The position numbers were made by a program, and so were the translations under genes. The notes under the pieces were generated by a model, which did no database searches, was not told the DNA's origin, and saw nothing but the letters and a program-made list of their open reading frames with translations. A stretch of DNA of 24,262 bases from Baffinella frigidus (Eukaryota; Cryptophyceae; Cryptomonadales; Baffinellaceae): positions 78,435-102,696 of the forward strand of contig MU646433.1 in the NCBI GenBank assembly GCA_026770585.1. Direction: 5' to 3'. This document shows, piece by piece, positions 1-24,262 of this stretch (its first letter is position 1; each line of letters starts with the position of its first letter).

Positions 1-3
1 GGT

Positions 4-70
<67 letters not shown>

Positions 71-919
71 GGTTTGGGGTTTGGGATTCAGGGTCCAGGG
101 GCTAGGGTTCAGGGTTCAGAGATTCGGGATTAGGATTTAGGATGTAGGGATTAGAGATCAGGGTTCAGGGTTTGGGGTCCAGGATCTAGGGTCTAGGGTC
201 TAGGGTCTAGGGTCTAGGGTCCATGATCTACGGTCTAGGGGCTAGGGTATGGGGTTTACGGTGTAAGGTTTAGTGTTGGTGTTTTACGATTTGGCGTGTA
301 GGGTTTGGGGTTTGGAACCAAGGATTTTGGGTTCAAGGTTTAGGGTTCATTCTTAGGGGTTGAGGGTTGATGGTTGAGGCTCATGGTTCAGAGATCAGGG
401 TCTAGGGTTTAGGGTTTAGGGTTTAGGTTCTATGGTCTAGGGTTTAGGGTGTAGGGTGTAGGGTGAAGGGTTTAGTGTTTGGGGTTGAGGGTTGAGGGTT
501 GAGGGTTGAATATCTAGGGTGTAGGGTATGGGGTTGAGGGTTTATGGTGTATGATTTGAGGTTAAGGATTCGGTGTCTAGGGTTCAGGGTTTAGGGTTTG
601 GGGTGGAATGCGGGTTTTGGGTTCAAGGTTTAGCGTTTATGGTGTAGGATTTAGAATCAAGTTTAGGGTTCAGGTGACAGGGTTCACGGTTTAGGGGTCA
701 GGGTTTAGGGTTTAGGGTTTAGGGTTTAGGTTTTAGGTTTTAGGGATTAAGGTGTAGGATTTAGGGATTAGGGTTTAGGGTGTAGTGTGTAGGATTTTAG
801 GGTTTTAGGTTCAGGGTTTTAAGTTTTAGGTTTTAGGTTCAGGATGAAGGGTTCAGAATTCATGGTGAGGGGTTAACGGTTCAGGGTTCAGGGCCTAGGG
901 TTGAGGGTTGAGGGTTTAC
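1..919 (-). repeat. Degenerate telomere-like repeat filling CDKAL1 intron 1
   Basis: The plus strand opens with about ten exact TTGAGGG units (3-72). It continues as degenerate 6-8 bp variants (TTTAGGG, TCTAGGG, TTCAGGG, TGTAGGG) up to the CDKAL1 splice donor at 919. Read along the gene (minus strand) it is CCCTCAA/CCCTAAA-like. The conserved protein is interrupted exactly here in mid-domain, so the block is best read as intron. A truncated gene at a chromosome end cannot be excluded from this window alone. No other gene is visible in it. Confidence 0.85.
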
Positions 920-1783
920 CACGCGGAGCATGACGCCGTCCGGGAGGCAGCCGACAACGCCGTCGAGCATCGTGGCGAGCGAGACGTTGATGTCGCGCCC
1001 GTACGCACCCGTGTCCTCGCTCGACAGCCACAGCTCGCGCACCCCTTCCTTGATCACGTCCTGCACGCGAGCCACGATGGCCTCTGGGAGGTACGAGACC
1101 AGGTCCCCGCGGGCGTGCTTTGTCTTGCAGTAGGTGCAGTGGTTCAGGCACCCCATCGAGATGGGCACGATCTCGACGAGAGCGTTGCGCCGGATCTTGG
1201 GAAGGTCGAGCGCGGGGCGCACTCGCTGGCCCAGCAGCCGCACCACGTTGCCCTTCGCAGCCTCCTCCACCACCTCCACCACCCGGTGGATCTGTCTCGC
1301 GCCCACGACCGAGAGGTCCTGCAATTCCTTGCGGTCCGGATCGCCCTGCGGCACGCACCCCGCAGCCACCACTGCCGCGCCCGATGACTTGGCTTTCGCC
1401 ACCATGTTGAGAAAGCTGTCCTGGCTCGGGCCCTTGACGGTGCAGGAGTTGAAGAGGAATACATCCACGTTTTCGTCCCAGACCTGTGTGATCGTGTAGC
1501 CGTGCGCCGCGAGGAGCCCTGCCATGTACTCCCCGTCGCTGACGTTGTGAGCGCACCCTTGCGTCTTCATGTACACCGTCTGCACACCGGGCACGATTCC
1601 GTCCTTGGAAGCTGAGATGCGGTCTGTGTCTGCCGCCGATACCGTGCTCTGCTTGGCGTAGACCTCCTTGCTCGGCCGCGAGCGGCGGGTGGGGGTGACA
1701 GAGCGCGTGGACGACGTGACCGAGGGCGACATACGCGGCGCCTCCCCCCACACACCGCCCATGTCCTCCATGTCGAGCACCAT
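920..1783 (-). CDS. CDKAL1: CDKAL1-type tRNA t6A37 methylthiotransferase, first exon (partial gene)
   Basis: Radical-SAM methylthiotransferase that adds a 2-methylthio group to t6A at position 37 of tRNA-Lys(UUU). The exon has 288 codons from ATG 1783. After a Ser/Thr/Arg-rich leader (about residues 1-60) comes the MTTase N-terminal domain, with its three cluster cysteines Cys77 (KTQGCAHN), Cys114 (NSCTVK) and Cys143 (AGCVPQ). The radical-SAM CxxxCxxC follows in GCLNHCTYCKTKHARGDL (Cys212, 216, 219), then SSEDTGAYGRD. The family's next expected residues (GMTNPPY) are absent here. Instead a donor GTAAACCC starts at 919, in phase 0 after MLRV, and opens directly into telomere-like repeats. The remaining exons (rest of the SAM barrel, TRAM domain, possible C-terminal anchor) must lie beyond position 1. 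Divergent from the PH/ATG4 gene. Family identity is very secure; the exact start is fairly secure. Confidence 0.93.
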
Positions 1784-2590
1784 TTTTTCTGCAAGGGGAT
1801 CTTTTTGAGAGATGCCTCAGCAGCGAGCGAAGGGCGACCGGATTCTCAGATCTTTTCCAGGTGAGAAGTGAGCAGAGATCGGCAGCCCTTCACACTCAGC
1901 ACAGCGCGAAGGGGAAGATCCCAGCTGATCCCGAGCAAGGAAGTGGAGAGACCTCCCGACCCGCCGATTCTCGCTTTGGTCAAAGTCAACAATAAGTTGA
2001 CTTTTGCCAATCTCTGAATCTCTTAAAATCTTATTACCCGACTTTTAAAAGCTCTTCTCGACCAACAAGAGAGTGGCTTTGGCGCCGCTCACCGCACCCC
2101 TTCCTCCTGCCGCCAACCGCGCTGCACGGTGCGCAACGCACACCATTCCCTTCCTCGCACTGTCAAACAAGAAAACTCAGCTGTGCGCCTGGGCAACGTC
2201 GGTATTGGGGTCATTTCGAATCAGCGACCCAGGCTGATGCCCCCGCGAAATCCCCCGCGCCCCGCGGCGCGCGATGCCTGGACACCAGCAAAGGGTAGTG
2301 ATTTACATTGTGGCGTTAGTTTGCTGTTGTTCTGAGCTGGTGACAGGAGCGGTGCGTGCTCCACACGCCCCCAGCTGCCTCGCGGGGTTCTGGCCGCAAC
2401 AGAATCACCACCCCCCCCCAAACAACGCTGTGCGGGCACATTCCTGGCAGCTCGCCGGAAAAAACCTGTCTGACCCCTTGCACCACTATCACTGCACCTC
2501 GGCGGTGGGTTGTCTTGCTCTTTGCAGTCACGACACCGTGTCCTTGGTGAGCCTGAAACGATGTGGTTGTATCTCAGGCCCTTGCGATCA
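1784..2590. promoter_or_regulatory. Divergent intergenic region, CDKAL1 / PH-ATG4
   Basis: About 800 bp between two divergent start codons, so it should hold both promoters. Visible structure: a near-perfect inverted repeat, TTGGTCAAAGTCAAC (1976-1990) against GTTGACTTTTGCCAA (1996-2010), and a perfect palindrome CTTTTAAAAG (2042-2051) in an AT-rich patch (2020-2052). A C-run lies near 2411-2420. The sequence CTCTTTGCAG ending near 2530 could be a 3' splice site of a 5' leader exon of the plus-strand gene. No convincing separate gene; promoter roles are inferred from position only. Confidence 0.5.
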
Positions 2591-5500
2591 ATGGCGACTG
2601 CGGTGGAGATGAACACTCCTCTGCCTCTGCCGGCCACCATGCCGACGCACGGACCCCCCGTGTTGGACTACGCTCCAACCACGCAGCCGCCAGGGGTCTC
2701 GCACGCGACGGCTGCGATTCTGAAAGAGGGATGGATGCACAAGCTGTCGTACATGGGTTCTGGGTGGAAGAAGCGGTACGTGGCCGTGACAGAAGACAGC
2801 GAATTACGATACTGGGCCCCGACAGAGATTGGCGGCTGGGAACTGAAAGGGGTCATCACTCTTGAAGACGCCGAGTTCTCGCAGGTTGCTTCTCCTGCCC
2901 TCCCTCTCTTGACCGAGCCTGACATTCGAATGCCCGGGTTGTTGGTTGTTGGTGAGCTGCGTAGCTGGTAACAGAAGAGGCGCACCCACTCGTGCAGATA
3001 CGAGACATGACTGTCGATGGCGCGGAGGGCCGATTTCCTCTCTCGCTCAAAATCGCCTCGTCAAGGTTGTTTCCCGTCCCTGCAGCTTGCTCTTGCGACT
3101 TACTCTTCCTGGCTCTGTTGCGTTGAGGCAGTGCCAACATAGGTGACAGGACCAGCATGCGGGAAGAACTTGTTTCCGACGGTGTGTGGTCGGTTCGTGG
3201 ACCTTGGATTGCGACGTTGGCTGACAGGGTATCTTGTGTGGCGTTGGCAGGAGCGTGTCAGTGAAGCACCAGCAATGGTGGATCTTGCGAGACTACTTCT
3301 TCGCTGCCGAAGAATCTGAGCTGGAATCGTGGCTTGACGTCCTCAATCAGGTGCAGATCGCCTCCCGTGCCACCCGCCGCGCCCTTATGTCTGAGCTGCG
3401 GCGCTGGTTGCTGCTCTAGGAGAGTGAGTGGCTCAATAGAAACCCTGGCTGGCTGGATGGTGACAGTGGGTCGCGGATGTGTGCTGGCTGGCTGGCTGGC
3501 ACGTGACATGCGCGCTAGTAGCTTGACGATGCGAGTGCGTGGCACACGGAGAGGCAGCCTTGGTGGTGACAGGGGGGCGCGGTGCTGAGGTGGATGTGGC
3601 CTGGCAGGCGCGCAACGACGTGGAGCTAGTCGACAGGGCCTACTGCCTCTTCTCGGACGACGAGGAGGGTGGCGAGTCTCCGCGCGAGCGCCTCGACAAG
3701 CAGTACACGATGGTGGATGGCGGCACCGCGCGCGACGACCTGCAGGTGATGTCGCGGCAGGTGCTGCTCTCGACGCAGACCAACGTGGCGCACGCGGGCC
3801 GCAAGCTCGCCGAGGGCATGCACACACTCTTCCGCACCATCGTCGACGGCCCGCCCCCCGAGCCCCAAGACAAGCGCCACAAGGGCGACCCCGCCGGGCG
3901 CCCCATCTGGATCCTCGGGACGCGCTACGACGTGGGGCCCGACTCGCCGCGGTCGCGCGCGTCGTGGGCGCAGGGCCAGGGCCGTCCGGGGGGGGAGGTG
4001 GCGGCGTGGAAGCGCGCCCAGCGTGCCTTCCACAAGGACATGCAGTCGCGCCTGTGGTTCACGTACCGATCGGGGTTCGAGACCATCAAGCCGTCGCGGC
4101 TGACGTCGGACGCGGGGTGGGGGTGCATGCTGCGGTCGGGGCAGATGATGCTGGCGCAGGCGCTGCTCCACCACCACCTCCGCCGCGACTGGCGCCTCCG
4201 CCCCGACGCCCCCCCCCCGCGGTACCATACACCATACACCATACACCATCAACCATCAACCATAAACCATACACCATACACCATACACCATAAACCATAC
4301 ACCATAAACCACACACCATCAACCATCAACCATCAACCACACACCATCAACCATCAACCATCAACCATACACCACACACCATACACCATACACCATGAAC
4401 CATACACCACAAACCACACACCATCAACCATCAACCATGAACCATGAACCACACACCATAAACCTTACGGCTGAAACAATGAACCCTCAGGTGGTACGGG
4501 CTGATCCTGAAGCTGTTCGAGGACGACCCCTCCGCGATGTTCTCGATCCACAAGATCGCGCAGGGAGGAGTGCAGTGCCAGCGACAGGTGGGGCAGTGGT
4601 TCGGGCCTGACACCGTGTGCCGCGTGCTCAAGAACATCTGGACCGCGCAAGAGGGCAACTGGCCGTGCCACACGGCCGGGCTGCTCTACGTCGAGGATCG
4701 CTGCATCTACCGCGACATGGCCGAGGAGTGTGCCGCGTCGCGGCCGGCCTACCCTGGCATCATCAACACCAACAGGTCCCAACCCAGCCTCCGACCTGCC
4801 GCCCACCCCCGCGCGCACGCGCCCCTTGCCCCGATTCGCCTCCGTGCTCTGCCACAGCACGCGTGCGCGGCACCACTTTGAAGGCGCGTGGGTGACGCGC
4901 GCGGGCGACGCTGACTGTCTCAACGCCAGGCTTGCTGGGCCCCTCCCCGCGTGCGTTGCACCACTTTGAAGGCGCGTGTCTGACGGGCGTGGGTGACGGG
5001 ATGTGGGTGGGGCCCTGGCAGCCGGACGGAGCAAGCGCGGATCCCGTGCCCCTGGCGCCCGCTCATCATCCTCATCCCTGTGCGCCTCGGGCCTGAGGGC
5101 AAGATCAACAGGTCCGCCCCCCCCTCTCCATCTCACTGTGTGTGCATCCCGCCGTCCAAGAACCCCCCCCCCAAACAACCCCAACCCTGAACCCCTGCAA
5201 CCCCAAACCCCTACGCTACCCTTAACCACTTAACCCCTAAACCCTCCAAACCCCTGAACCCTCAACCTCTCAAACGTTTCCGACCCCCAACCCCCCAAAC
5301 CCCCAAAATTTGAGTGCCCACCAAACCGGACACACTAAAACCCCTGCACTACCCTACCCTACCCTACTCCGCGCGTGACACTTGGTGTGGTTGGCGCGTG
5401 GCAGTGCGTACATCCCGAAGCTGGCCGCGTACCTAGGCTTCCCGCAGAGCCTTGGCTTCGTTGGCGGCAGACCCCGGCACTCCTACTACTTCGTCGGCGT

Positions 5501-6789
5501 CCGCGGGTCACTCTTCCCCCCCTCGAACCCTGCGAGCCTTCTAGCACCCCCCCGCTGCCTCAGGGCACCCCCCCGCTGCCTGAGAGCACCCCCCCTCTGC
5601 CTCAGAGCCACCCCCCCTGTCTGCGAGCACCCCCCCCTGCCTGAGAGCAGGCTCCCCTGCCGCCCTCTTCGCCCTGAGTGCCAGCACCCGCCCGTGCCTG
5701 CCAAGCTGTCTGTCTAGCTGCCTTACGTTGAGAGTGCGCAAACAGGGATGCAGGCAGGGGCCGCCTTGCCAGCCTGGCAGTGTCCCGGAAAGGAAAGCAG
5801 GTTGCATGCACCCATGGCTGACCGACGCGCGCGTGGCAGATACCACACCTACTACCTCGACCCGCACGTGACGCAGGCATACCAGCCGATCCGGCGCAAC
5901 ACCAACTGCTCATCCTTCCACTGCCGCATGCCTGAGAAGATGTCACTCGCGCATATCGACCCGTCTCTCGGTACCCGACCCCTCTCCCGTCGCCTGACAC
6001 CCTCCCAACTGCCGACACCCGCACCTCCCGCTTGCCAGCCCAGCGCCCGCCCTCCTCTCACCTTTCCAGGCCAAGGCCTGCCTGCCTGCCTCGGACCTCC
6101 CAGCCCCTCCCGAGTGAGTGTTGCTGATGGCTCCGTTTTCGGGTGGCAGCGCTCGGGTTCTACTGCGACGACAAGTCCGACTTCGAGGATCTCTTCAAGT
6201 ACGTCCCCCGAAATAACATGTCCTTGGCTTCTAGTAATAGACGCGACGTAGCACCCTGGTCTCTTTTCACTCGCACTAGCCTGCTGTTGTTCGGCACGCC
6301 TGCTGTTCTCCTGCCGGAGAAGAGCACTGCTTTTCTTCTGCCCCACACTGTTGCTCACTACATCTCGAATCTCTCAACGCTCATTTGGGTTTCGCGCGGG
6401 CCCTGACGGAGGAAGGGACGTGCAGGCGGATCAAGCAGCTGACAGCAGACGACAGTTCCCCGATCCTCTCCGTCGGCGAGCGCGCCCCTGGTTCGCCCTC
6501 CCTCCTCCCCTCGTCCTCTCCTGCCCACTCGTACACTACATGTACTCCCCGTCCTGTTTCCTCCCCTCGTCCATTCCTCCCTGTCACTTGCCTTGGGTCG
6601 TCTCTCGTACACACACACTCATCCCCGCCATGCACGTCGGTGCAAACACTTGCTCTTTTCGAAGCTTTGCCTCGATGCGCAAACACACAGTTGGGATGTT
6701 TTTTGTCTCTCTGAGGGGTGCTGGTGTTCGGTGGCGCAGATTATCTCTGCATGGACGACATCGACGAAGATGTCCTTGTCGGGGAATGA
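2591..6789 (+). CDS. ATG4: ATG4 cysteine protease with an N-terminal PH domain (11 exons)
   Basis: ATG4 is the C54-family protease that processes and de-lipidates ATG8 in autophagy. Proposed exons: 2591-2884, 2980-3065, 3251-3350, 3608-4221, 4491-4775, 5022-5111, 5405-5506, 5840-5970, 6150-6198, 6426-6490, 6740-6789 (TGA). All phases match and the sum is 621 codons plus stop. Residues about 44-160 form a PH domain ([19 protein letters not shown], final helix ESWLDVLNQ). An acidic linker follows, then the protease: [17 protein letters not shown], catalytic Cys333 in [39 protein letters not shown], and Asp531/His533 in YYLDPHVTQ. The Cys-to-Asp spacing resembles animal ATG4. The start is uncertain: ATG 2639 has a GCCACC context. 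The PH-to-protease junction (3350/3608) is inferred; the alternative is a PH gene ending at the TAG 3417-3419 plus a separate ATG4 starting at 3539. The acceptor at 2979 is weak. Confidence 0.85.
4222..4490 (+). repeat. ATG4 intron made of CCATACA/CCATAAA-type repeats
   Basis: The donor GTACCATACACC at 4222 begins the repeat itself. About 240 bp of 7-mer-like units follow (CCATACA, CCATAAA, CCATCAA, CCACACA), then a short unique tail and CCCTCAG acceptor at 4490. The flanking exons rejoin in frame (phase 2) across conserved ATG4 sequence (HHLRRDWR to WYGLILKLF), so this is an intron. The C-rich strand is the transcript strand. Confidence 0.9.
5112..5404 (+). repeat. ATG4 intron rich in CCCTAAA/CCCCAAA-like units
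   Basis: The intron lies between the KIN and AYIPKL coding segments. About 5158-5370 is dominated by degenerate C-rich telomere-like units (CCCCAAAC, CCCTGAA, CCCTAAA, ACCCT runs). The transcript strand is again the C-rich one. It ends in GTGGCAG at 5404. Confidence 0.75.
5543..5655 (+). repeat. C-rich minisatellite in an ATG4 intron
   Basis: Roughly five imperfect copies of a 20-22 bp unit of the form GCACCCCCCCGCTGCCTGAG lie inside the 5507-5839 intron. Overlapping reading frames stay open only because of the repeat; the conserved ATG4 exons lie on both sides. Confidence 0.75.
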
Positions 6790-7329
6790 GTGCGAGGAGA
6801 GGGTGTAAAGGAGGAATGCTGCAGCGTGTACTGTACCATGTGCAAGCCGCGGCTTCCAATGCCCGGCGCAGCAGTGCACGTTTGTCCGAACAGTGTGTTC
6901 GAGTGTAAATTACATGTGCTTCACTACACGTGATCAATCGGCGCCAGCCTGAGATGCCTCAGCCTTCCCGGCGATAAAAAATAAGGGGGGCTCGCCCCTG
7001 CTCGCTCCTGCTCGTGCGTGGCTGCCCTACTGCTGGTGTAGACCACCCGCAGAGCACCCGGCGAGCAATGGAGAGCAGGTGCCTTGCAGCACTACAGCAC
7101 CGCCACGTTGTCGTTCTTGGGCTGCAGCGGGCGTCTCTTGGAGGCAGACAGCGGCAGTTTCGAGGCAGACACCGGCAGTTTCCTGCACCCGCCCCACCCC
7201 TTCAGACGGCAGCTGCAAGCAAGCAGCCCTGAGAACACACACCAGCTCAACGATAAGACACCACGCGCGCACAGTACACCCACGTACAGGGATATGAACT
7301 ATCATAGGAAAACCCTTGGTCCAGCCGAG
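6790..7329. other. Intergenic sequence downstream of ATG4
   Basis: No gene recognised between the ATG4 stop and the foldback element. TGTAA occurs at 6804-6808 and about 6904-6908. That pentamer is a polyadenylation signal in green algae, but its use here is untested. A short direct repeat of the form GAGGCAGACA-CGGCAGTTT occurs twice at about 7140-7182. Confidence 0.4.
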
Positions 7330-7625: not shown

Positions 7626-7769
7626 ACGGTTTCTTGAGTTGTGGGTTCTTGTAACTCAGATATGCGACGAGGCAGTGCGAAGGAGAGGCAGTGGTCCACA
7701 CCCCGCATCAAGAAAAGGCAAGAGGTGCGCGCGTGCTTGCCCCAGTGAAAGGCGCAGTGGAAAGGCAAC

Positions 7770-10700
7770 TTACACGGGCGTCACGACGGCGAGGCTGCGG
7801 TAGGTGGGAGCGTTGTCTGTCGAAGACTTCTTCTTGAGGCTCGGCGAGGAGATGCACACCTGCAGCCGCGAACAACCGCTTCAGCGGGACTCGTAACCTG
7901 CTTCTGAAAAAAGGCGCACCGCGTTCCTGCACCCCCCCTCCACCCAAACACCGCAGGCTGGAACATCGCCTCTGAGAGGCCCCTGCCCGACAGCAACGCA
8001 CGCAGCGAGGCGAGACGGAGCACGATGGTACCTTGCTCCAAGGCGCGAGAGGAAGAGGCTCGTCGCGCGGCTCCTCCGCGATGAGCATCTGGCTGCCCTC
8101 GTCTGCCGCAAGGTGCGTGCCTCCGCGCGACGGCGGACGCCCCGAGCGCAGCGCCTGCGCCGGCGGCAGAGGCTTCGCCTCTAGGGGCCGCGCGCCTGTC
8201 TGCGCCGTGGTGCCGTCGCCGCGATCATGCTCGGCGTCGCCCACCTCCCTGCGCGCCTCCCGCACCACGGATGCCCCCGTGGCCGGGCGCGACTCGGCAC
8301 GCGTTCCAGGCACCGGCGTCGCCATGCGCCGCGAGGGTGGCCGCCGCACTCCGTCTGCCGTCTGCCGTCGCAGGGGGGGGTGCGCCGATTATTGCGATTC
8401 ATGCTAGCAAGCCTCAGTCTCAGAGCAGGGCGAGACGTGGGGGTAGCCCGCTTCCGTGAGAAGATTGGGCGGGTGCTCTTGGTAGCAGTCACGGGACCAC
8501 GTTACACACCACTCTGGCACTCCTGGCACATGCGGCAGGCTCAGCACGCGGCTGGGCATGGCATGACACGCACGGAACCACTTGGACTTGCAGAGGCTGG
8601 GCCCCGGCCGCCTGTGCGAGATGAACCCTGCTTCACACCGTGGGGGCTGGGCGTGGTGGGGCGTGGATGCACACCTTGGGCGGCGGCGGCGGCGGCGGAG
8701 AGGACATGTCTGCGAGGATGCTCTCCATCGCGGGCCGCGGGGGCGTGCCGGCGCCGGAGCCGCGCACGGACGCTGCCTGAGGAGAGACCGCGGGCAGCAG
8801 CGCTGCCGACGGGCTGAGGAGCAGCGGGTCCTGCTTGGCGGAGGCAGGCATCGCGCGCGGCGCGCCACGGCTCGCGCTCTTGGGCCTGAGCGGGAACAGA
8901 AGCACGGCGCCGCTCTTCTCGGCGCCCTCGCTGGCGGTGCGCTGCTGGAACCGCTCCTGCACACCATCGTCCTTCTCGGCGTCCCGCCACAAAGTGGACC
9001 CCCCCCCCGCGAGCGGCGAGTGCCTGGCAGGGGGCGCCCACGACTCCCCATCAGGCTCCTGATCCTCGCACGCGTCATCTCCTGCAGCTTCCGCGCGGGC
9101 CAGTGCCTGCGCCTCCGCGAAGGGCAAGATGCCAGCAGCCACCGCCACCTCCCCGCGTCCCCGCGCCGGCGGGCCAGGATCTTGCGACTCGCCGCAGAGG
9201 AAGAGCAGCGAGAGGAGCGGGGTCTGCACGCCGCCCTCCTCGGGGGGGGCGGATTCGGTGGAGCAGGCGTCGGAAACGCCAGCCTGTCTTCCGTCGCAGG
9301 AAGGCCCGTGCGTCGGGCATGAGTAGGCGCGCACCAGCGAGACAATGTCCCCGTTTTGGAGCGCCACGCGCGTGCCCTTGAGCAGCCACTTCTTCTCTCC
9401 GCGTCGGATCCAGGTCCCTGCACACCACACGCGTCACGCTCTAGACACGCCACACTCTTGCCCTACCTGCCTCCAGCGCGAGGGCTGCACCAAGGTTGCG
9501 AGCACATGCGCCGAGCGTCGGGAGTGACAGAGGCAACGGCAGTGACGCATACGGGTAGGAGCAGCGTCGGGATTGAGACACAGGCAAGCGAGGGCAGGAC
9601 CGTTGTGCGAGTGATCCTGGAGCTGAAAGCCCGGAGGGTGCCCCCCGACCCTGCGGAGGCCGGGCGCGAGATCCTCAGGTTGGACCTCCCACCGGATGGT
9701 CAAGTGCTGCCCCGACGCCCGCGAGTCCTTCGTCCGCACCATGTTTGCTCTAGTCCGTCCCAACGTGAACCTGCTTCAGACTTGAGCGTTTATGGGTTGC
9801 AGTTTAGGGTTTGGTGTCAAGGGTTGAGGGTTTAGGGTGCAGGGTTTGGGGTTTAGGGAGTAGGGTTTCGGGTTTGGGATTTAGGGTTTAGGGTTTGGAG
9901 ATGAGGGTTTGGGGTTAAGCGAGGGGGGGTTAGGGTTTGGAGATTAGGGTTCAGGGTTATGGGTCAAGGGTTTAGGGTTCAGGCTTTGGGGTTTGTGGTT
10001 TAGGGTTGAGGGTGTAGGGTGTAGGATTTGGGTTTTGGGTAGCAGAGTTTAGGGTTTCTGGTTTAGGGATTAGGGTTTGAATACTAGTGTTGAAGGTTAG
10101 GGTTTGGGGTTAAGGGATTGGGGTTTGGGGTTTGGAGTTTGAGATGTCGGGTTGAGGGTTTCGAGTTTCGAGTTTCAGGTTTCGGGTTTCGGATGTCGGG
10201 GTCAGGGTTCAGGGTTCGGGTTTCGGGTTTCGGGTTTCGGGTTTTGGATTTGGGTTTTGGGGTGTAGGGTTCAGGGTTCAGGGTTTGGGGTTTAGAGTCA
10301 AGGGTTTAGGGTGTGGAGTTTCGGGTTTAGAGCTTGAGGTTCGGGGTGTAGTGTGTAGGGTTTAGGACTTGGGGTTTCGGGTTTTGGGTTTAGGATTTAG
10401 GGTCAGGGGGGAAGGGTTTGGGGATGAGGGTTTAGGGGTTTTGGGTTTGGGGTTTCGGGGTTCATGGTTTAGGGTTGGGAGATTATGGTTTGGTGTTACG
10501 ATTAGAGGGTTTAGGGTATATGGGTTGGGATTGAGGGATGAGAGTTCAGGGTTTAGGGTTTGGGGTTTAGGGTTTAGGTGTACGCTTCAGGGTTTAGGGT
10601 TTGGGGATGAGGGGGTTGGGTGTAGGGTTTGGGGTTTAGGGTTTAGGCAGTAGGGTTTAGGGTTTAGGGTTCAGGGATTGGGTTTTAGGGTTGAGGGTTG

Positions 10701-12019: not shown

Positions 12020-12474
12020 GGCCAGGGAGGCGCCCTCCAGGGCCTGCCGCCAACTCCGCCAACCCTTTTAACCTGCTCGCAAGACCGAGGCAACGTCAGC
12101 ATTTTTGGCCGTCGATCCCTCAGCCAGCGCGGGCATTCCCCGTCGTCGCTCATTAAGAAAACGTAGCACGCAGTCTCGGAAATTTGGTCGCAAATCAGTC
12201 GACTCTCCGCAACGTTACACCGACACTAGCGCCATCCAGACGGTTAGGGCTGAGTAGCTTCGCATACCTAGGTTCACCTGCGACGCCAGCGCTTGGCCAA
12301 GTCACCGTCCAGCGCCCCGTGGAGCGCCCTTCTTGGGCGAATCCTCTTTGAATTTTCAAAAAAATGACCTCAAGAGGTCCTCAAAAGTTGACAGAAACTC
12401 CAGAATCGTCCACTTTTGAAAGTGTCAGAGTTCCCCGAAAGCGTCTTTTCGCCCAGGGAGGTTCTTCCAGCAGG
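12020..12474. promoter_or_regulatory. Divergent intergenic region, FHA gene / Cys-rich gene
   Basis: About 455 bp between divergent start codons, presumed to contain both promoters. It includes an AT-rich self-complementary patch around 12348-12363 (TTTGAATTTTCAAA) and an in-frame upstream ATG at 12364 for the plus-strand gene. No core promoter element can be assigned with confidence. Confidence 0.4.
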
Positions 12475-15400: not shown

Positions 15401-18328
15401 CGAGGGCCGCCGGGAGACACTAGCAGTGTGCGACACACCGCAAGCAGCGCACGCACTAGAGCCAGCCCAGCCGCGTTTAGTCCTGTGTCGCCGGACCGCA
15501 AATTTGCTTCCGACCCTCCCCCGGGCGTGTTTTTCCGAACCGAGCAAGGAAGTTGCTGCCCCGTTTCGGTCAACCGCCATACGCCTTTCAGCAGCAACTG
15601 TCGGCCAGCATACTTCTTTGAGAAGTATTTATGTGGTTCGCCGTCACATGCCCGTGTGTGTGGTGGGTAGTTTGTGTGACGTGACAAGGTGGGATTCTTG
15701 GGATGGCGTGACAAAGTGAGGTGACTTGGCTGAGTGTGCGGGATGGGCGGCAGGCGGATCGGGCTCGGCAGGCGCATGCACCCCGTGCGCGATCGGCACC
15801 TTCAAGACTTCCGCGGGTGTCGGCACGTGCGCCCCGTGCCCCGCAGCGTCGTCCTCGCCTGCTGGCTCGTCGCTGCTCACTGCCTGCACGTGCAAACCTG
15901 GCTTCTACGGCCCCAACGGTACCCCCTCTTCGCAACCCCAGCGGCGTGCACCATGCGTGTCCCCACCCTGCGCGCAGCCTGCCGTAGCCCCCCGAGGACA
16001 TCTGTCTACAAACTAAACCCCGAAACCTTCACCCTAAACACTAAACCTGCTCAGCATCCGCCATCCCCTGCACGATCATTGCACCAAGAGCCCCGCGCGT
16101 GCCCCCCCCCCCCAGCAGAATGGTTGGCGCAGCGCAACGTGCAGCATCCTCTGGGCGAGGATGGCGGCAGGGCGCGTGTTCCGGCAGGGCGCGTGGATGG
16201 CAGGCACGGCACGTATGCAGGCAGGGAGCGTGTGGTGGCAGGCAGCGCGATCCTGACGTGGATCGCGGCGCGGGAGCAGGGGGGGCATGCCAGGGGTGCG
16301 CGGTCGGATCGTACAAGACAGTCTCTGGCGCGGCATCCTGCACCCCCTGCGCGGGCAGCTCGACGACTCTGGCGAACAGCAGCACTGCCTGGATCGACTG
16401 CGTCTGCGACACGGGCTTCTACGGTCCCCGCCCCCTCTCCTGCCTCTCCCTGCTCCTGGTAACCTTGTATCCGTAGGTGCTTAGATGCCCACACTCCTAC
16501 CATCCCTGGCAGCCGTGATGGGGGGGGGGGGTGGCAGCACCCGCACCCTCACCGCGAGCCCCGCCAGGGTCAGAGCCCCCCCCACCCCTCCCGGCAAGAT
16601 GGGGCTCTGACGCGGCACGGCCCCTGCAGGAGCGAACAGCACGGTGTGCACACTCTGCCCGGCGCTGACAAACTCGACGCCTCCATCGGTGGGCGTCGAG
16701 GACTGTGCCTGCAACCCTGGCCACACGGGACCTGGCGGGGAGGTCACCTGCCTCGAGTGCGCTGCTGGTATGCCCACATGCCACCCTGTGCCCTGCAATC
16801 GTGTGCCCGCTGGCAACCTCTGTCAGGGTGCTGTGGCTAGACCACAGGGTTTTTTCGTGTGGCCATTCGCACGACGCTATGCGACGCTGTGTGGCAAGTG
16901 GATCGGAACTCTGTGCCCGTCTTCACACGAATCATCACCTCGGGCGCTCTCGCTAGAGATATGACGACAGGGCTGTGCACGGCTGGCAGGCAAGTACAAG
17001 GTGGCGATGGGGGACGCAGCATGCACGGCGTGCGCGGGCATCGGCATCTCCTCCCCGGCCGGCAGCCTCTCGCTCCTCGCGTGCGCGTGCGCTGTCGGCC
17101 ACACGGGGCCGTTTGGCGGCCCCTGCTCTCTCTGCCTCCCGGGCTTCACCAAGGTGTGCCCCGCCAAAGAGATGCCCCCCTCCCACGCCTGCGGCCAGGA
17201 CTGCTGGGCCCTGCTGGGCGCGGCGCGCGCTGCCCCCCGGACTGCACCGCGCTGGAGCCCTCCTTGCGAGCGTCTGCTGTCCGTGCGCTGCACCCCCCCT
17301 TCCTTCCTCCCTCCCTTCCTCCCCCCCTCCCTCTCTCCCTCCCTCCCGCGCACGCATCGTCTGACGGGGAGGCGGGGGGGCAGGCGGTGATCGGCAACGC
17401 GGCATGCGAAGTCTGCCAGGAACACATTCTCCCGTCAAAGGCCTTCTTCCAATCGCCCACCGCGGCCGCCTTGCCCTGCAACTGGAGGTGCCCGCTCAGC
17501 AGCCTTTCTTTCTCTCCTCGAATGCATGCTTTCGGAAGGTGCCTCGATTGTGTCTGCGCCGTGACGGGCATAAGTGGGGGGGGGGGGGGCAGTCTAGCAA
17601 GGACGCGGTCGGGACGCACGCCACGCGCCATCTGCCGACGCGGGCCAACCTCGTGTAACACAGGAGCGCGGATGGCAGGTGTAACACGGGACACCACTAC
17701 CTAGAGCAGAGCGCATTCCGACCCAACGCCTGCGTCCCGTGCGTCGTCATCAAGCCCGCCAAGAACCCGTGCGCCGTCGGAGAGTACTTCAACAACGTGT
17801 GTTCTACCTCGGGCGATCGCGGATGCCGCCCGTGTGCCTCGCTCGTCGGGCAGGGCCACTACTCTGCCCACCACCAGGTCCCCTCCTCTCGGGCCACCTT
17901 CCCCGCTGCATCGTCCACTTCGCGTGCTGCTTTGTCCCTGCGTCCCTGCCACTTCAGGAAACAATCCTCACCGCCCCGCCCCGCCCCGCGCTGTACAGCC
18001 ACGCGCGCGGCAGCCCCCTTGTCTTTTGGGTGCGGGTGGTGATGCTCACCAGCAGGCGAGAGCACTAGCCGGTGCTCTCCGGGGTGGCTGTGTCTCTCCT
18101 GGCGGGCGTAGAAGTGCGCCGCTCCGGGGGTGCTCTGCGAGCGCTCGCGTGGTCCTCTGCAAGCCCTCAACCTAAACCCTCAATCAGGAGTGGACCAAGG
18201 CCGCGTGCCCCTTCAACTGTGACCTCGGGTGGAAGCTTCTCGCGGGGAAATGCGTGGAATGTCCTTCTGGTGAGTTCTGTGGTATCGAGGAGGCCCTCTG
18301 CGCCAAGGGAATAACCTCAAGTAGCTAG
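12475..18328 (+). CDS. Secreted Cys-rich repeat protein, GCC2/GCC3 (ephrin-receptor-like/TNFR-like) type, 11 exons
   Basis: Proposed exons: 12475-12619, 13065-14078, 14402-14485, 15060-15194, 15754-15918, 16280-16423, 16630-16767, 16990-17153, 17384-17487, 17679-17877, 18188-18328 (TAG). All phases match, giving 810 residues. A signal peptide (hydrophobic LLLVLCVASTSLHVALA, cleavage near AQ) precedes Cys-rich modules of about 48 residues. The typical pattern is C-x2-C...YCPGG...CNASS..PTQSST..CVCNAGFVGANG, the pattern of GCC2/GCC3 surface proteins. Exon 2 holds six modules in tandem; later exons carry single diverged modules. Seven introns in a row are phase 1, so modules can be shuffled. After CVECPSG the frame runs on through GEFCGIEEALCAKG to the stop without a membrane segment, so the product looks secreted unless further exons exist. 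The in-frame ATG at 12364 is less likely because it buries the signal peptide. Ligand and function are unknown. Confidence 0.8.
12727..13038 (+). repeat. Two diverged copies of a ~50-bp sequence in intron 1 of the Cys-rich gene
   Basis: Copy 1 (12727-12777) and copy 2 (12989-13038) share GCTATCCCGAAA-CTGGG-CGGTGGGAACAT and TTCTTGTCAC-TCGCTTT with few differences. GGGATAGCTG at about 12944 and 12961 is the inverse of GCTATCCC, giving hairpin potential just before copy 2. It looks like a duplicated or mobile-element remnant within the 12620-13064 intron. Confidence 0.65.
13079..13918 (+). repeat. Coding tandem repeat, 144-bp unit, about six copies
   Basis: Units start near 13079, 13220, 13364, 13508, 13652 and 13796. 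The middle four are nearly identical at the DNA level; the first and last have diverged. The 144-bp period encodes one 48-residue Cys-rich module. Because the period is a multiple of three, other frames also stay open here and produce spurious long reading frames. Confidence 0.9.
14205..14267 (+). repeat. Pyrimidine (CTCT) simple repeat
   Basis: CTCT-rich microsatellite inside intron 2 (14079-14401) of the Cys-rich gene. It is pyrimidine-rich on the transcript strand. Confidence 0.85.
15315..15384 (+). repeat. 14-bp minisatellite, five copies
   Basis: Five contiguous copies of TGGGTG(G/T)ACAGCAG lie in intron 4 (15195-15753) of the Cys-rich gene, with the final copy ending in T instead of G. 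Confidence 0.9.
16004..16056 (+). repeat. Short CCCTAAA-like patch in intron 5 of the Cys-rich gene
   Basis: The patch carries ACTAAACCCCGAAACC followed by CACCCTAAACACTAAACC. The C-rich strand is again the transcript strand. Other parts of the 15919-16279 intron are unique sequence. Confidence 0.6.
18164..18187 (+). repeat. CCCTCAACCTAAACC tail at the last intron of the Cys-rich gene
   Basis: A short telomere-like C-rich tract directly abuts the acceptor CAATCAG of the last exon (18188). The transcript strand is C-rich. Confidence 0.55.
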
Positions 18329-18738
18329 GTGGGGCGAGGGGGGCGTGGCGTGTAGATTAAAAACGGACAAGTGGAGCAGGCAGCGGCTTCTGTACGTGTT
18401 GGCAGTCAGCATGTGATTGACCTATTGGTGCCAAGTACGGTGTGTTTCATTGGTGCCGGATTGTCGCTCACGGCAGAAAAGGAGCACTGGGCAATGGTTC
18501 CTCGCCCGTGGCTTCCCCATCCTCCCCTTCCACGCGTTCCCCGTCCTCCCGAGACTCTTCAACGTCCCCCTCCGGCCCATCCGCCGAGTCCTTCCCACCG
18601 TCCGACTTGAGCGTGCTGCTGCTCCGCTTCTTTCTTCGCGCCTTCTGCTCACCGACCGCACCATGTGTTGGAAGTGTGGCCAGGCAAGAGAGCGTGCCAG
18701 CAGATCGAAGCAAACTTGTCACTGACGTAATGAAAACG
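18329..18738. other. Convergent intergenic region
   Basis: About 410 bp between the stop codons of the Cys-rich gene and the release-factor gene. I see no gene in it. A short GAAACA-type simple repeat lies just beyond its right edge (about 18752-18770), inside the tentative last exon of the minus-strand gene. Confidence 0.4.
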
Positions 18739-21700
18739 TTACGATGATTCCACCGAAACAGAAACAGAAACGCAAACAAACTTAGGAAGTTGCTCTACCA
18801 GCTTTGAACAGCTTAATGATTCAGATGGCGTGACCATGGCCATCGCATCTTGCGGTGGTTGCAGATGTTGCTGTGTCTGACAGTGTTCTTGCTGCAGCTC
18901 GCAGCAAGGATGGTAAGTAGTCAAGTACGAGCGCACGGGTGAGGTTCCCGGAAGTGCAAAGGGAAACTCACACGGACAGACACAGACCTGCTTCCGCAGG
19001 GCGAGCATCTTCTTCTCATCCTTGGTGCTCCCATCCCCCCCCTTGAGGACAATCTCGACCTTGTCGACGAGAGCGCGAAGTGCGATGAATCTGTTTTTCT
19101 CGCGCTGCCGCTCGCGCTGGCACTCATACTGCTCGCGCCACCAACACCGCTTTTCAGCTCTACAGGCGGCTTGCTCTTGCCAAAAACAGGCGGCTTGCTC
19201 TTGCCAAAAACCGCGCCCAGCTCTCAGCTCTCGCCACCAGGTTCCCTTCACTTCCAGGAACCCTCGACCCCCTTGCAATGAGATGGCAAACTTGCCAGAA
19301 GCGATTCATCTGTTGCAAGCCGATGGGGGTTCAGGGTGCAAGATTTAGGGTCGAGGATTTACGGTTTGGGGTTGAGGGTTTAGGGTTTAGGGTTTAGGGT
19401 TTAGGGTGCAGGGTTCAGGAGTTAGGGATTAGGGTTTAGGTTTGACGTTTTGGAGTTTAGAGTTTAGGTATGAGAGTTTAGGGTTTAGGGTTGAGGGTTT
19501 AGGGTTTAGTGTTTAGGGTTTGGGGTTTGGGGCTTACGGTTTCGGGCCGTGGGTTTAGGGTTTGGGGTTCATGGTTTAGGATTTGGGGTTTAGGTTTGGG
19601 GCTGAGGGTTGAGATTTCAAGGTTCAGGGTTTAGAGTTTGGGGTTTGGGATTTGGAGTTTGAGGTCAGGGTTTAGGGTTTAGGGTTTAGGGTTTAGGGTT
19701 TAGGGTTTAAGGATGATGGTTTGGGATTTAGATTTTAGGGTTTGGGGTTTAGGGTGTAGGGTTTAGGGTTTAGGGTTCAGGGTTTAGGGTTTTGGTTTCA
19801 GGGTTTAGGGTTTAGGGTTCAGGGGTTAGGATTCAGGGTTGAGGGTTAAAGGTTTAGGGTTGAAAGATGAGGATTCAGGGTCCAGGGTTGAGGGCTGAGG
19901 GTTTTAGGTTTAGGGTTTGGGGTTTGGGATTCAGAGTCATGGGTCAAGGGTTTAGGTTTTATGGTTCAGGGTTTAGGATTTGGGGTTCAGGGTTGAGGGT
20001 TGAGGGTGTAGGATTCAGGTTTCAAAGTTTCAGTTTAGGATTTGGGATTTGGGGTTTAGTGTGTGGGGTTTGGGGTATAGGGCTTAGGGTTTAAGGTTTG
20101 TGGTTGAGTGTTTAGGGTTTAGGGTTTAGGGTTTATGGTGCAGGGTTCAGGGTTTGGGGATGAGGGTTGAGAATCTAAGGTTTAGGGTTTGAGGTTGAGG
20201 GTTTAGGGTTCGCAGTTTAGGGTTCATATCAGAGGATTCAGGGATTGGGATTCAGGGTTTAGGTTTGAAGGATTAGGGATTGGGGTTGAAGGATTAGGGT
20301 TTGGGATTTAGGGTTCAGGGTTGAGGATTTAGGGTTTGGGGTTTAGGCTTTAGGGTTGAGGGTTCATGGTTATGATTGAGGGTTTAAAGTTTCAGGTTTT
20401 GGGTTTCAGGTTTTGGGTTTCGGGGTTGAGGTTTAGGGTTTAGGGTTGAGTGTTTAGTATTCAGGTTGTTGGTTTAGGGTTTAGGGGTTGCGGCTTACGG
20501 TTTCGGGCTGTGGGTTTAGGGTTTGGGGTTTAGGGTTTATGGTTTGGGGTTTGGGGTTGGGGGCTCAGGGTCTAGGTTTCAAGGTTCAGGGTTGAGGGTT
20601 CAGGTGTTCGGATTTGGGGTGTGAGGTCTAGGGTTTAGTTTTTGGGGTTTAGGGTTTAGGATTTGGATTATAGGGTTTAGGGTTTAGGGTCTAGGGTTTA
20701 GGGTTTAGGGTTTAGGGTTTAGGGTCTAGGGTTTAGGGTTTAGGATTAAGGGTTCAGGGTGGAGTGTTTCGGGCTAAGTGTGCTCAGGGTTTATCTTTTG
20801 TCCAGGGTTTATTAGGGTTCAGGGTTTAGGTGTTGGGGTTCAGGATTAAGGGTTTAGGGTTTAGGTGTTAGGGTTTAGGGTTTAGGGTTTTTGGTGGATT
20901 CAGGTTTCAAGGTTTAGGATTTGGGGGTTCGGGTGTAGGTTTTGTGGTTTGAGGTTTGAGGGTTTAGTGTTCAGGATTCAGATTTTGGGCTTCAAGGTTC
21001 AGGGTTTATGGTTTAGAGTTTAGAGTTGAGGGTTTCGGGTTTCGGGAATCGGTTGATTGGTTTAGTGTTCATGGTTCAGGGCTGAGGGTTTAGGGTCCAG
21101 GGTTTGAGGTTTAGAGGTATGGGTTTGGGGTTGAGGATTTAAAGGTTATGTTTGAGGGTTTAGGGTTGAAGGTTGGAGGTTGAGGGTTTAGCTTTTAGGG
21201 TTTGGGGTTTAGGGTCGGGGGGTTAGGGTTGGAGGGCTGACGGTTTAGGGTTCATGGTTCAGGGTTCAGGGTTCAGGGTCAAGGGTTCATTGTCCAGGGT
21301 CCAGAGTTCAGGGACAAGGCATGAGGATTCAGGGAAAAGCAAGAAACACATCTAGTCTAGCCACGCAAGATTGTTGGGTTGAGCTGTGAGAACATGTCAG
21401 TTGATAGAGGATTTGTCTCAACTTTCCGAAATTTCTGGGAGGAATGTACGTTTGAACCGAAAAAGAAGCCAGTCAGCTCTACACTCGTTCGTGGAGAGTT
21501 CAGGTTTTAGAGTTTAGGGTTTAGGGTTTAAGGTTTGGATTTTGGGGGTTGGGATTTTGGGTTTAGTGCTTAGTGTTTAGTGTTTAGGGTTTAGGGTTCG
21601 GGTTTTAGGGTTTAGGATTCAGGATTCAGGGGTGTAGGTCACCTGGAGTCCTGTCGGGGAGTGTGTCATCTGCACTTTGGAGTTGGTCTTGTTGATTTTC

Positions 21701-22213
21701 TGCCCACCGGCGCCGCTGCCCCGCACGAACTTCTCCTCGATGTCCGCCATCGAGATTCCGAGCTCCCCGATCTTGTCGAAGAGTGCATCGACCTGCTCAC
21801 CCAACACTCGGTGTCATATCATCCCATCAATTTGACTAGCTTTTGTCAGGTGCTGGTATGGCTGGTCTCTACCTCATCCGCCAGGGCGAGAAACGGTCTA
21901 CAGCAGTCGTCCAAGAATCTGCCGGCGTGGCTCAAGTCCCGGGGGGAAGGCGCAGAAAAGACACCTTGTCTTTCTTGATGTCAAAGTTGTGGTGCCTGTC
22001 CAGCGAGACCCCAAGCACCAGCTGCGTTCCCCGGCGGCTTGTCCAGAGGCTTGGCGCGTGTCGCTCGACTAGCCCTCGCGACAATCCCCCCGGCCTCCTT
22101 ATGCACGGCACTCCTGTCGCAAACGGACTGGGCGGGACCGCGAAACAGGAAACGCAGGCTGCGTTGCACAGAGCGAGCGCCACAACCATGCATGCTCGCT
22201 GAGAAGGCACCAT
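18739..22213 (-). CDS. Organelle-targeted GGQ release-factor-like protein (RF-1 domain, MTRFR/C12orf65 type), 4 exons
   Basis: Class-I release-factor fold proteins of this short type hydrolyse peptidyl-tRNA on stalled organelle ribosomes. Proposed exons: 22213-21965, 21792-21643, 19128-18988, 18891-18739, all phase 0 (230 residues). Residues 1-23 look like a signal peptide. They are followed by CFAVPPSPF and a Ser/Arg-containing stretch, the Phe-led bipartite leader typical of red-derived complex plastids; plastid targeting is inferred. The RF-1 core follows: ADIEEKFVRGSGAGGQKINK (GGQ 112-114), KVQMTHSPTGLQ, then the basic helix YECQRERQREKNRFIALRAL. GSGAGGQ has Ala where the family usually has Pro. 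The codon-recognition domains of full RF1/RF2 are absent. Exons 2 and 3 are 2.5 kb apart across telomere-like repeats. The last exon is tentative: the frame also reads through 18987-18892. Confidence 0.8.
19163..19210. repeat. Perfect 24-bp tandem duplication
   Basis: Two identical 24-bp copies beginning CAGGCGGCTTGCTCTTGCC (19163-19186 and 19187-19210) lie in the unique 3' part of the release-factor intron. Confidence 0.9.
21330..21500. other. Unique island inside the telomere-like intron
   Basis: About 170 bp without TTTAGGG-like units, more AT-rich than the surrounding genes and bordered by repeats on both sides. Neither strand has a recognisable tRNA, a clear C/D snoRNA box pair or a conserved peptide. 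It could be the ancestral intron core, an intron-hosted small RNA or an unrecognised alternative exon. Confidence 0.45.
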
Positions 22214-22302
22214 CGAACGTCTCCCCCCCTGACAAGGCACTCCCCAACCCATCCGGATGCTTTGTTTGTGGCTTTTAAAATTCATGTTTTAAAACTCTGG
22301 GG
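22214..22302. promoter_or_regulatory. 89-bp bidirectional promoter, release factor / POLI
   Basis: Only 89 bp separate the two divergent start codons, so 5' leaders and both promoters must share this space or overlap the coding exons. It contains two exact TTTTAAAA octamers (22273-22280 and 22287-22294) separated by TTCATG, ending 8 bp before the POLI start. They are the only AT-rich sequence in the spacer and are the obvious TATA-like candidates. Confidence 0.6.
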
Positions 22303-24262
22303 ATGGAGGACGACTCTCCGCGGGCAAGTGACGAGGAGCTGGACGAGGACGAGGCTGACGAGCAGCTTGACACTGGCCTGCCAGACGCCTCCCGCGTCAT
22401 CCTTCATTTTGATGTCGGCTCCTTCCATCCATGTTTGCTGTGGAAAGCTCAAAAGCAGCTGCGAACAAGAGCGGTGGGGAAGCAACACATTGAGGTTAGG
22501 CAGTCAGGCAACACGGCTGACGCTAGAAGGTGGTCTGCCAATGCGTCCTTTCATGCATGTCTCCATGGACCCGTATGGGTCCCCTTCCAAAAGCGTCTCC
22601 CCATGCCCTAAACCCCAATCTTACATTCAGGTTGATTGTTTCTACGCGCAGAGAGAAGAGATCCGGGTGAGTTTCGGATGTCCTGTGGCCCCTACCCTCG
22701 CTGGCACGTTTACGCTGATCAAATTCGGGGCTGCATGTGACCTCTGATTTCGCGCTCATGTTTGTCATCTTACGATGAGGCTGTCGTGTGGCGCAGGATC
22801 CGTCCTTAAAGGAGAAGCCGATTGGAATCACGCAGAAGTACCTGGTGGCGCCCCTTCTGTGTCTCTCCTTCTCGCTCAAGCAAGTCCAGAGGCAGCATTT
22901 CCAACAGTAGGGCGCATCCTGAATTTGGACGCTCTCCTGCCCAACGCATCTAGACGCTCTCCTGCCGGCGACTCAGCCACACTGCGGACGCATATGCTGA
23001 GTGTAATCCCAGATGGACTACGTGCCTTTGAACCTGGGGCAAGGGGCTCGCCGTATGGCCGTCCTTGGCCATACGGCGATCAAATCGGCAAATCATGTAT
23101 CGTTACAGTGATTGAGTCCCAATCCGCAAAGCCTGCATCGTTACAGTGATTGAGTCTCTTGACCGCGCGCCAGTTCTCTTGCTCCAGCCAGCCTGGAGTC
23201 ATGTCTGAGAATTGCCAGACATGACTTGCCGCCGCTCGCCTGCCACCGGCGGGGCGCTACTCATGCTCAATTGCAGATTCGCCTGTTGTCCAGCGTTTTA
23301 TCTTCGCCCCCCCCCTCTTATCAGTCCCCTTCTCGCGATGGCAGGTTGTGACAACCAACTACAAGGCGCGAGAGCTGGGCGTGCAGAAGATGACCAACAT
23401 CGACGAGGCACTGAAGCAGTGTCCGGAGCTGATCCTGCTGCCCGGCGAGGACTTGACGCCCTACAGAGACGCGAGCAAGAGCATCTACAAGACGCTCGCG
23501 CGCTTCGGGACCGCGGCAGAGCGCCTCGGCATGGACGAGGTCTCGCGCCGCCCTACTCTCATTCACCCTGGCAAATTGACGCTGTGCCTGTTCTCGAGAA
23601 CCGTTCCGTGGCCTATCTGGCACGAGAAGGATAGTGTGTGGTGGGCCAAAAGGAAGGCGTTTGGTGGGCGAGAAAATGAAGACCTTTTGGTGAGAGTGAG
23701 CATGAGGCGCTCGGCAGGTGTGGGTGGATGTCACGGATCGCTGCAAGGCTGTCGTCGACGCTGCGCCGAGCGGCCTACAGCAGGCTGCCGCTCGTCTCTC
23801 GGGCGGTGGCGGCCAGGCGGCAGCGCTGGCGTGGCAGGGGCATGTGCACCGCAGCGGCGCGAACGTTGCCAGCGAAAACCGCCACCGCTTGATGGACCTC
23901 CGCGCCGTGGGGACTCAGTCGGGCAGGGGCGGTGGCGAGTGGGCGGCGCGGGACAGGGAGCGGCCCAACCTTCTGCTGATGGCTGGGAGCGTCATCGCGC
24001 ATGAAGCGAGAGCTGCGGTCATGCCAGCCTCCTATCCGGCCCCCTCCCCAGATGCATACTGTATCCCCGGTTGATGGTGTGCCTGTTGGAGTGGCGGGTG
24101 CCCCCCTGCCCTCCCGGGGCGGCGTGTGACGCGAGGCGGTGAGGAGTATGCCGCGTCAAGTGGCGGGACGCGGGGCTGGCTGGAAGGGGTTGGGTAGGTT
24201 TGGGCGGGCGTTGATGCGTGCGGGGTGGCACTGCTGGCCTGGTTGTTGGCAGGTGCGGGGGG
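22303..24262 (+). CDS. POLI: DNA polymerase iota, Y-family (partial, 5' exons)
   Basis: Error-prone translesion DNA polymerase. Proposed exons: 22303-22413, 22631-22666, 22797-22844, 23345-23539, 23718-24017, and the first 10 bases of a sixth from 24253; every junction is phase 0. After an acidic N-terminus (about residues 1-30) the catalytic palm opens with VILHFDVDCFYAQ (metal-binding Asp37). KPIGITQKYLVVTTNYKARE and LGVQKMTNIDEALKQCPE are pol iota-like rather than eta-, kappa- or Rev1-like. LLPGEDLTPYRDASK follows, then RLGMDEVWVDVTD with Asp129-Glu130. The spacing from the first Asp to the Asp-Glu pair is 92, as in human pol iota. Exon 5 carries a Gly/Ala-rich insertion before GHVH and ends in the palm helix GSVIAHEARAA. 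The rest of the palm, little finger and ubiquitin-binding motifs lie beyond the window. Confidence 0.92.
22596..22630 (+). repeat. CCCTAAACCCC tail at the 3' end of POLI intron 1
   Basis: ATGCCCTAAACCCCAATC lies about 10 bases before the acceptor TTACATTCAG. It has the same C-rich transcript orientation as the large blocks. This is one of the few acceptors here without G at -4. Confidence 0.55.
22928..23225 (+). repeat. Direct repeats and perfect hairpins in POLI intron 3
   Basis: Within the 22845-23344 intron: GACGCTCTCCTGCC occurs twice (22928-22941, 22953-22966). A perfect 12-bp stem CGCCGTATGGCC with 6-nt loop spans 23049-23078. ATCGTTACAGTGATTGAGTC occurs twice (23099-23118, 23137-23156). 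The stem CTCCAG/CTGGAG spans 23182-23198, directly adjoined by the perfect 10-bp stem GTCATGTCTG/CAGACATGAC (23198-23225, 8-nt loop). Confidence 0.8.

Follow-up and report, generated by a model that had tools for sequence, protein, structure and literature searches.

Why would telomere-like repeats that lie within genes follow the direction of transcription? This question is raised by a stretch of 24,262 nucleotides of the single-celled cryptophyte alga Baffinella frigidus (assembly GCA_026770585.1, contig MU646433.1), hereafter the window, in which intron after intron carries degenerate repeats of the telomeric type. Telomere repeats within chromosomes are commonly regarded as marks that DNA repair has left at scattered sites. 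In this alga, they occupy many nuclear introns and are nearly always turned so that the C-rich strand (CCCTAAA-like) is the one found in the transcript. Our analysis confirms this polarity as a strong bias, though one with exceptions. Its most likely cause is selection on the transcript against the G-rich orientation.

Telomere-like tracts lie in introns, with the C-rich strand in sense

We modelled six gene pieces in the window: a CDKAL1-like gene (minus strand), ATG4 (plus), a gene with an FHA domain (minus), a cysteine-rich gene that resembles ephrin receptors (plus), an MTRFR-like gene with an RF-1 domain (minus) and a gene like DNA polymerase iota (pol iota; plus). The finer of these names are probable assignments. 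On the plus strand, a scan for two consecutive units, allowing up to 2 mismatches in 14 positions, marked 3813 bases as TTTAGGG-like and 109 as CCCTAAA-like; 20 block shuffles gave 29.8 and 2.4 on average. An earlier note, made from the sequence alone, had described eight telomere-like tracts, placed them in introns of genes on both strands and claimed that the sense strand was always the C-rich one. All eight were recovered close to where it had put them, and each of the 14 segments marked by the two-unit scan lies inside a modelled intron and is C-rich in the sense strand of its gene. With looser scans the tracts enter exons by at most 4 bases, at intron edges. In total, the tracts occupy eight introns of the six genes, all of them C-rich in sense, and none is centred in an exon. 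Within the window alone, the probability of such one-way polarity by chance is 0.008 when counted by introns (8/8) and 0.03 when counted by genes (6/6).

The tracts differ in length and regularity. According to Tandem Repeats Finder, arrays of period 7 lie at 1-918, 4224-4464, 9802-11656, 19344-21287 and 21498-21631. The array in the ATG4 intron 4222-4490 has the consensus ACCATAA, not CCCTAAA, and the long tract of the MTRFR-like gene is interrupted by about 200 nucleotides of unrelated sequence (21290-21494). At the other extreme, the tracts at 18164-18187 and 22596-22625 have about two units each and are visible by the two-unit scan only. All lie away from the chromosome end, as the window spans positions 78435-102696 of a contig of 757183 bases.

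Such repeats are not peculiar to this window. The exact 21-mer (CCCTAAA)3 occurs 27288 and 25832 times on the two strands of the assembly, a total of 53120 copies in 382 Mb, and the same pattern read backward occurs 14 and 13 times, so that the excess over this control is about 2000-fold. The assembly copy that we searched has 382.5 Mb; the available text of the publication on B. frigidus CCMP2293, probably the strain studied here, gives a draft of 534.5 Mb with 41.1% repeats and names the strain CCMP2045 as conspecific (PMC9756366). On viral contigs, the 21-mer was found at 22 loci, only in short tracts.

How well supported are the introns?

The strength of the intron calls varies by gene. 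The best match of ATG4 is a protein (P0001) derived from a transcript, in transcriptome MMETSP0989 (taxid 697907, now Baffinella frigidus). It equals the translation of our spliced model in three blocks, covering coding nucleotides 49-849, 882-1142 (in another frame) and 1144-1842. All ten junctions of the model fall within these blocks: that of the intron 4222-4490 (nucleotide 1076) in the middle one and that of the intron 5112-5404 (nucleotide 1451) in the third. Both tract introns had been modelled before the comparison with P0001, from which the small exon 2998-3065 was taken. P0001 departs from the model at a single residue between blocks and over its final 36 residues. Given the change of frame, transcript and genome must be offset by small gaps near nucleotides 850-881 and 1143. 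Within the exon 3608-4221, about 32 nucleotides are missing in P0001 and 87 residues are read in the other frame; this could reflect an assembly error, an allele or alternative splicing.

For the MTRFR-like gene, the residues joined across the intron 19129-21642 align without gaps to four homologues, including those of the cryptophytes Guillardia theta and Hanusia phi. In the pol iota-like gene, the match to the IMS family comes from the protein joined across the intron 22414-22630. In the CDKAL1-like gene only the donor of the intron lies within the window, and the subthreshold Radical_SAM match ends at position 59 of the 166 of the profile, just before the tract. The FHA gene has a stop close upstream of its second exon (open reading frame 9434-9775), which implies that an upstream exon is required; the link of exon 2 to exon 1 across the tract is suggested by our model. 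The database model P0121 begins at a methionine inside exon 2, and thus includes neither the join to the modelled exon 1 nor the first residues of the FHA stretch. Its annotation seems to have halted at the tract (region 9771-12067), a warning for the annotation of other genes of this kind. For the cysteine-rich gene, with its two tract introns, the single line of support is a model with 11 introns and no internal stop.

The polarity recurs elsewhere in the genome

The polarity was also examined in an independent sample from the same genome. A kinase-family search of the assembly returned 108 exon-level matches with known strand, and we ran a three-unit scan on the stretches between neighbouring matches on the same strand and in consistent profile order. 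Tracts were present in 12 of the 14 stretches of 0.8-2.0 kb and in 5 of the 10 stretches of 0.37-0.76 kb, i.e., in 17 of 24, each of which could include an unseen exon. All 17, on 17 different contigs, are C-dominant in sense (p = 1.5e-5). The tabulation of sense and antisense orientations proposed in the earlier note, here made on this sample instead of the whole genome, supports the bias.

The claim that the sense strand is always C-rich stands as a strong bias and fails as a strict rule. In the kinase stretches, 4909 tract bases (3753 + 1156) are C-rich in sense and 369 (323 + 46) of the 5278 are G-rich. The latter lie in 5 of the 17 stretches (L056, L057, L069, L073 and L076), which shows that calling the polarity strict is wrong. 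The 3'-most tract piece is C-rich in all 17 stretches, including the five mixed ones.

Other genes show the same trend, two of them in stretches sampled at fixed positions (L038 and L036). In a phospholipid-translocating ATPase (flippase) gene (L038; TIGR01652, 364.7 bits for this part against a full-length cut-off of 431), 16 of the 17 drawn introns are 37-99% C-rich tract and one is 9%, with 2418 C-rich bases and no G-rich ones. Four of these introns lack GT...AG ends (three start with GC and one has neither end), so their limits may be off. In a gene weakly similar to bestrophins (L036; 27.5 bits, cut-off 27), tracts occur in seven of the nine intervals between exon anchors and all seven are C-dominant (1431 C-rich against 244 G-rich bases). 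On contig C3, plus-strand exons with a weak thioredoxin-like match (L044; 19.5 bits, cut-off 27) and an exon that looks PDI-like by eye, with no family match (L026), adjoin C-rich tracts of the plus strand. A G-rich tract of the plus strand (L045) is followed by an apparent minus-strand exon, in agreement with the polarity. Two pieces run in the opposite direction: a C-rich one of 42 bases near the L045 tract and one of 29 bases in L034, both in an undefined gene context.

Could all this result from chance or from the way the genes were drawn? Several models were built from homology or open frames only. Yet P0001 spans two tract introns, homologues back another, the genome-wide 21-mer exceeds its control enormously, and the kinase sample shows the bias again. 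We consider an artefact very improbable.

Features of the window

Table 1. Gene features of the window (positions in the window) and the tracts they carry
Feature	Position	Strand	Remarks
CDKAL1-like methylthiotransferase exon	920..1784	-	UPF0004 59.8 bits; Radical_SAM 28 bits (cut-off 29.5)
CDKAL1-like intron, 5' part	1..919	-	donor GTAAACCCTC at 919; telomere-like throughout; runs off the window end
ATG4 protease gene with PH domain	2591..6790	+	11 exons, 10 introns; Peptidase_C54 296.6 bits, PH 28.3 bits; P0001 match
ATG4 intron	4222..4490	+	ACCATAC/CCATCAA-type heptads nearly GT to AG; 3' end CCCTCAG
ATG4 intron	5112..5404	+	degenerate CCCTAAA-like tract, about 5160-5370
FHA gene second intron	9418-9600	-	
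FHA-domain exon 2	9601..9770	-	FHA 30.9 bits across exons 2 and 3; P0121 identical from MVRTKD on
FHA gene intron	9771..11657	-	telomere-like from donor GTAAACCCTAAAC until 11 nucleotides before acceptor; putative join to exon 1
Cysteine-rich gene intron	15919..16279	+	short C-rich tract 16006-16049
Cysteine-rich gene intron	17878..18187	+	about two units touch the acceptor; CCCTAAACCCTCAATCAG at its end, sense strand
MTRFR-like intron	19129..21642	-	tracts 19324-21289 and 21495-21631, other sequence between
Pol iota-like intron	22414..22630	+	about two units directly before acceptor

Some of these genes have further traits. In ATG4 the PH domain is N-terminal, and both Guillardia theta and Hanusia phi have entries with this pair of domains. 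For the FHA gene there is a B. frigidus match, T484DRAFT_1788067, with 100% identity across 76% of the query. The cysteine-rich gene carries, inside an exon, a 144-nucleotide tandem repeat (13136-13831) in 4.8 copies that are 89% alike. Finally, a minus-strand frame at 18468-18660 resembles the basic C-terminal part of MTRFR homologues and overlaps with the last exon modelled for the cysteine-rich gene on the plus strand; probably one of these gene ends is wrong.

Splice sites and RNA structure

How could splicing depend on the orientation of a repeat? The earlier note had remarked, correctly, that a perfect CCCTAAA unit includes neither GT nor AG. It had added that the opposite orientation would supply TTTAG, a ready-made 3' splice site, in every unit, and this does not fit the usual acceptor, which is GCAG in 20 of 21 ordinary introns (the donors have little beyond GT). 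Tract introns depart from this rule: about half the time they end in TCAG, ACAG or CCAG, and acceptors other than GCAG were found in 9 of 19 (7 of the window and 12 of the flippase gene), against 1 of 21 ordinary introns (p = 0.003).

The dinucleotides themselves are very unevenly distributed. Sense tracts have 4.6 GT and 10.7 AG per kb; flipped, they would have 136 and 102, and ordinary introns have 59 and 52. The pattern of change within the units gives a mixed picture. Changes from A to G that create AG (positions 6 and 7) number 147 against 283 changes from A to C, and the corresponding counts at position 5 are 303 and 185, i.e., the AG-making changes are about three times rarer (p = 3e-17). 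On the window tracts alone, the purging of AG and GT appeared weak; with more tracts, one prediction was borne out and two were not. The folding of the two strands also differs. Allowing for G-quadruplexes, predicted energies per 120 nucleotides are 0 to -3.7 kcal/mol for sense tracts and -20 to -37 kcal/mol for flipped ones. This favours a structural cost equally, and splice-site avoidance as a cause of the orientation is possible but unproven. We also considered a general excess of C over G in introns, which is too small to account for the bias (2141 C and 1950 G in the introns without a long tract).

A proposed cause: selection on the transcript

The account that we favour begins with what is observed: degenerate heptads of the telomere type fill many introns of B. 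frigidus, some of them from GT to AG. A tract would arise or land in either orientation and may then lengthen by local slippage or unequal exchange, as the runs of one variant unit suggest. Tracts placing the G-rich strand in the pre-mRNA would be lost through selection, because GT and AG abound in their RNA, which is also prone to form G-quadruplexes or R-loops. The C-rich RNA, nearly unstructured and nearly free of GT and AG, could be spliced away as inert filler. Either the splice-site cost or the cost of RNA structure could dominate. We give this account of local growth followed by selection about an even chance of being right.

Several observations weigh against it. By splice-site profiles that are rough, being built from 20 ordinary introns of the window, donor-like sites number 3.2 per kb and acceptor-like sites 0.2 per kb in flipped tracts, no more than in ordinary introns (3.8 and 1.8); in sense tracts there are none. 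We found no avoidance of changes from C to G in the tracts: relative to changes from C to A, those making AG (46:76) and GT (50:87) are no rarer than neutral ones (30:75). These counts of variant units are not independent, since variants spread in runs. Some introns tolerate G-rich telomere-like pieces, as in the five mixed kinase stretches, and one intron of the window has at 15314-15383 a tandem repeat of GTGGGTGTACAGCA that is G-rich in sense and carries GT and AG in each unit. The orientations compared are those of tracts in or beside gene models. Lastly, according to the available text of PMC9272169, 60 CCCTAA repeats in the C-orientation in a yeast intron abolished the mature mRNA, and 60 TTAGGG repeats did not. 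The effect in yeast may be due to yeast proteins that bind the repeats.

A narrower idea, the splicing cause of the earlier note taken by itself, is that the G-rich orientation is excluded because each unit would offer a usable splice site. The high load of GT (about 30 times up) and AG (about 10 times up) in flipped tracts, the rarity of AG-making changes from A to G and the C-rich 3'-most piece of all 17 kinase stretches agree with it. Still, the profiles score flipped tracts no higher than ordinary introns, the changes from C to G are not avoided, and sense tracts already hold some AG. As the sole cause, splice sites are unlikely.

Either way, the bias is large, unexplained and now testable. 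With its great number of such loci, the genome offers a natural experiment on the tolerance of splicing and transcription, on intron growth and perhaps on the birth of introns.

Origin of the tract introns

Where do the tracts come from? In the long tracts of the window, variation is greatest at positions 4 and 5 of CCCTAAA (T is kept in 74% of units and A in 67%, against 83-87% for the others), and single variant units, e.g., CCCTCAA, recur in consecutive runs, which suggests local spreading. In several tract introns the repeat begins at the donor (GTAAACCC, GTACACCC, GTTCAACCC). We found no direct repeats at the ends of 19 tract introns (12 of them from the flippase gene), where the mean match is 3.0 against 2.9 for mismatched pairs. 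Hence, transposon-like insertion is not supported, and target-site duplication, a mark of transposition, gave no signal in these introns. The simplest account is that tracts grew in place, or were captured while breaks were repaired, and were then filtered.

Insertion could itself be directional, for example if tract introns were reverse-spliced into other transcripts or if insertion were coupled to transcription, and would then need no filter. Introns that are telomere-like nearly from GT to AG, and the single polarity of 16 of the 17 introns of the flippase gene, would be expected if this were so. Against it stand the lack of direct repeats, the existence of G-rich pieces and the tracts that share their intron with other sequence, and we think that it is improbable. 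Alternatively, the bias could reflect mutation linked to transcription, if tracts expand or survive better when the non-template strand is C-rich, with no effect of splicing. The orientation does track transcription and the variants do occur in local runs, but in yeast, as far as the available text of PMC9272169 goes, small-scale changes in length were equal between orientations without selection. This alternative seems quite unlikely.

Since some introns are telomere-like nearly from end to end, birth of introns from telomeric DNA is conceivable. A C-strand repeat would need only a G before T (GTAAAC...) and an A before G (...CCCTCAG) to acquire both splice sites. Telomere repeats might thus have supplied this lineage with new introns, at the scale of the genome, with the orientation set because only the C-strand works as an intron. 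We consider this idea rather improbable.

Inside introns, degenerate copies of the neighbouring exon were seen beside the tracts in the flippase gene (about 1120-1200 and 1700-1750), in L057 (about 650-1330), where an exon-like piece is repeated several times, and in the bestrophin-like gene (about 1050-1690), as if introns were also growing through duplicated exon edges. Dispersed elements that are short and palindromic, with CCTACGGTA-like arms, recur in introns and intergenic DNA of L026, L067, L068 and L072.

Comparison with known systems

Cryptophyte telomeres are made of TTTAGGG repeats. In the available parts of a mainly open-access literature, telomere-like repeats are described from Eimeria, mammals and plants, some of them in introns, and we found no mention there of a polarity or of introns built from such repeats. 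The arrangement in B. frigidus nevertheless shares features with several known systems. Introner elements are related sequences present across many introns of one genome, and B. frigidus also has related sequence in many introns. It differs in that its tracts lack target-site duplications (19 tested) and consist of simple heptads, with no defined element.

The genomes of Eimeria have telomere-like heptads (AAACCCT/AGGGTTT) that, in the accessible text of PMC4287421 and PMC9131526, are dispersed along the chromosomes and not confined to their ends and, as here, lie mostly outside coding sequence. Neither an orientation relative to genes nor introns made of repeats are reported in those parts of the two papers. 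Furthermore, CAG repeats encoding homopolymers co-occur in Eimeria, whereas the 29 repeat rows listed for the window include no CAG array; one CAG run was found outside it, in L045. Mammalian interstitial telomeric sequences are likewise internal repeats that are sometimes intronic, and none of the human ones is exonic (PMC7215372, PMC6410037). In humans 31% lie in introns, which was judged compatible with random insertion, and the portions available of these two sources report no polarity. Plant telo boxes (AAACCCTA) are short telomere motifs in genes, but those described in the available text of PMC3022908 occur singly and are enriched in 5' untranslated regions, in contrast to the arrays of up to about 2000 nucleotides in internal introns here. 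An engineered case is the yeast URA3-intron reporter, in which a human telomeric tract placed in an intron has an effect that depends on its orientation. There, in the part of PMC9272169 available, more harm comes from the C-orientation, the reverse of what the algal bias hints at.

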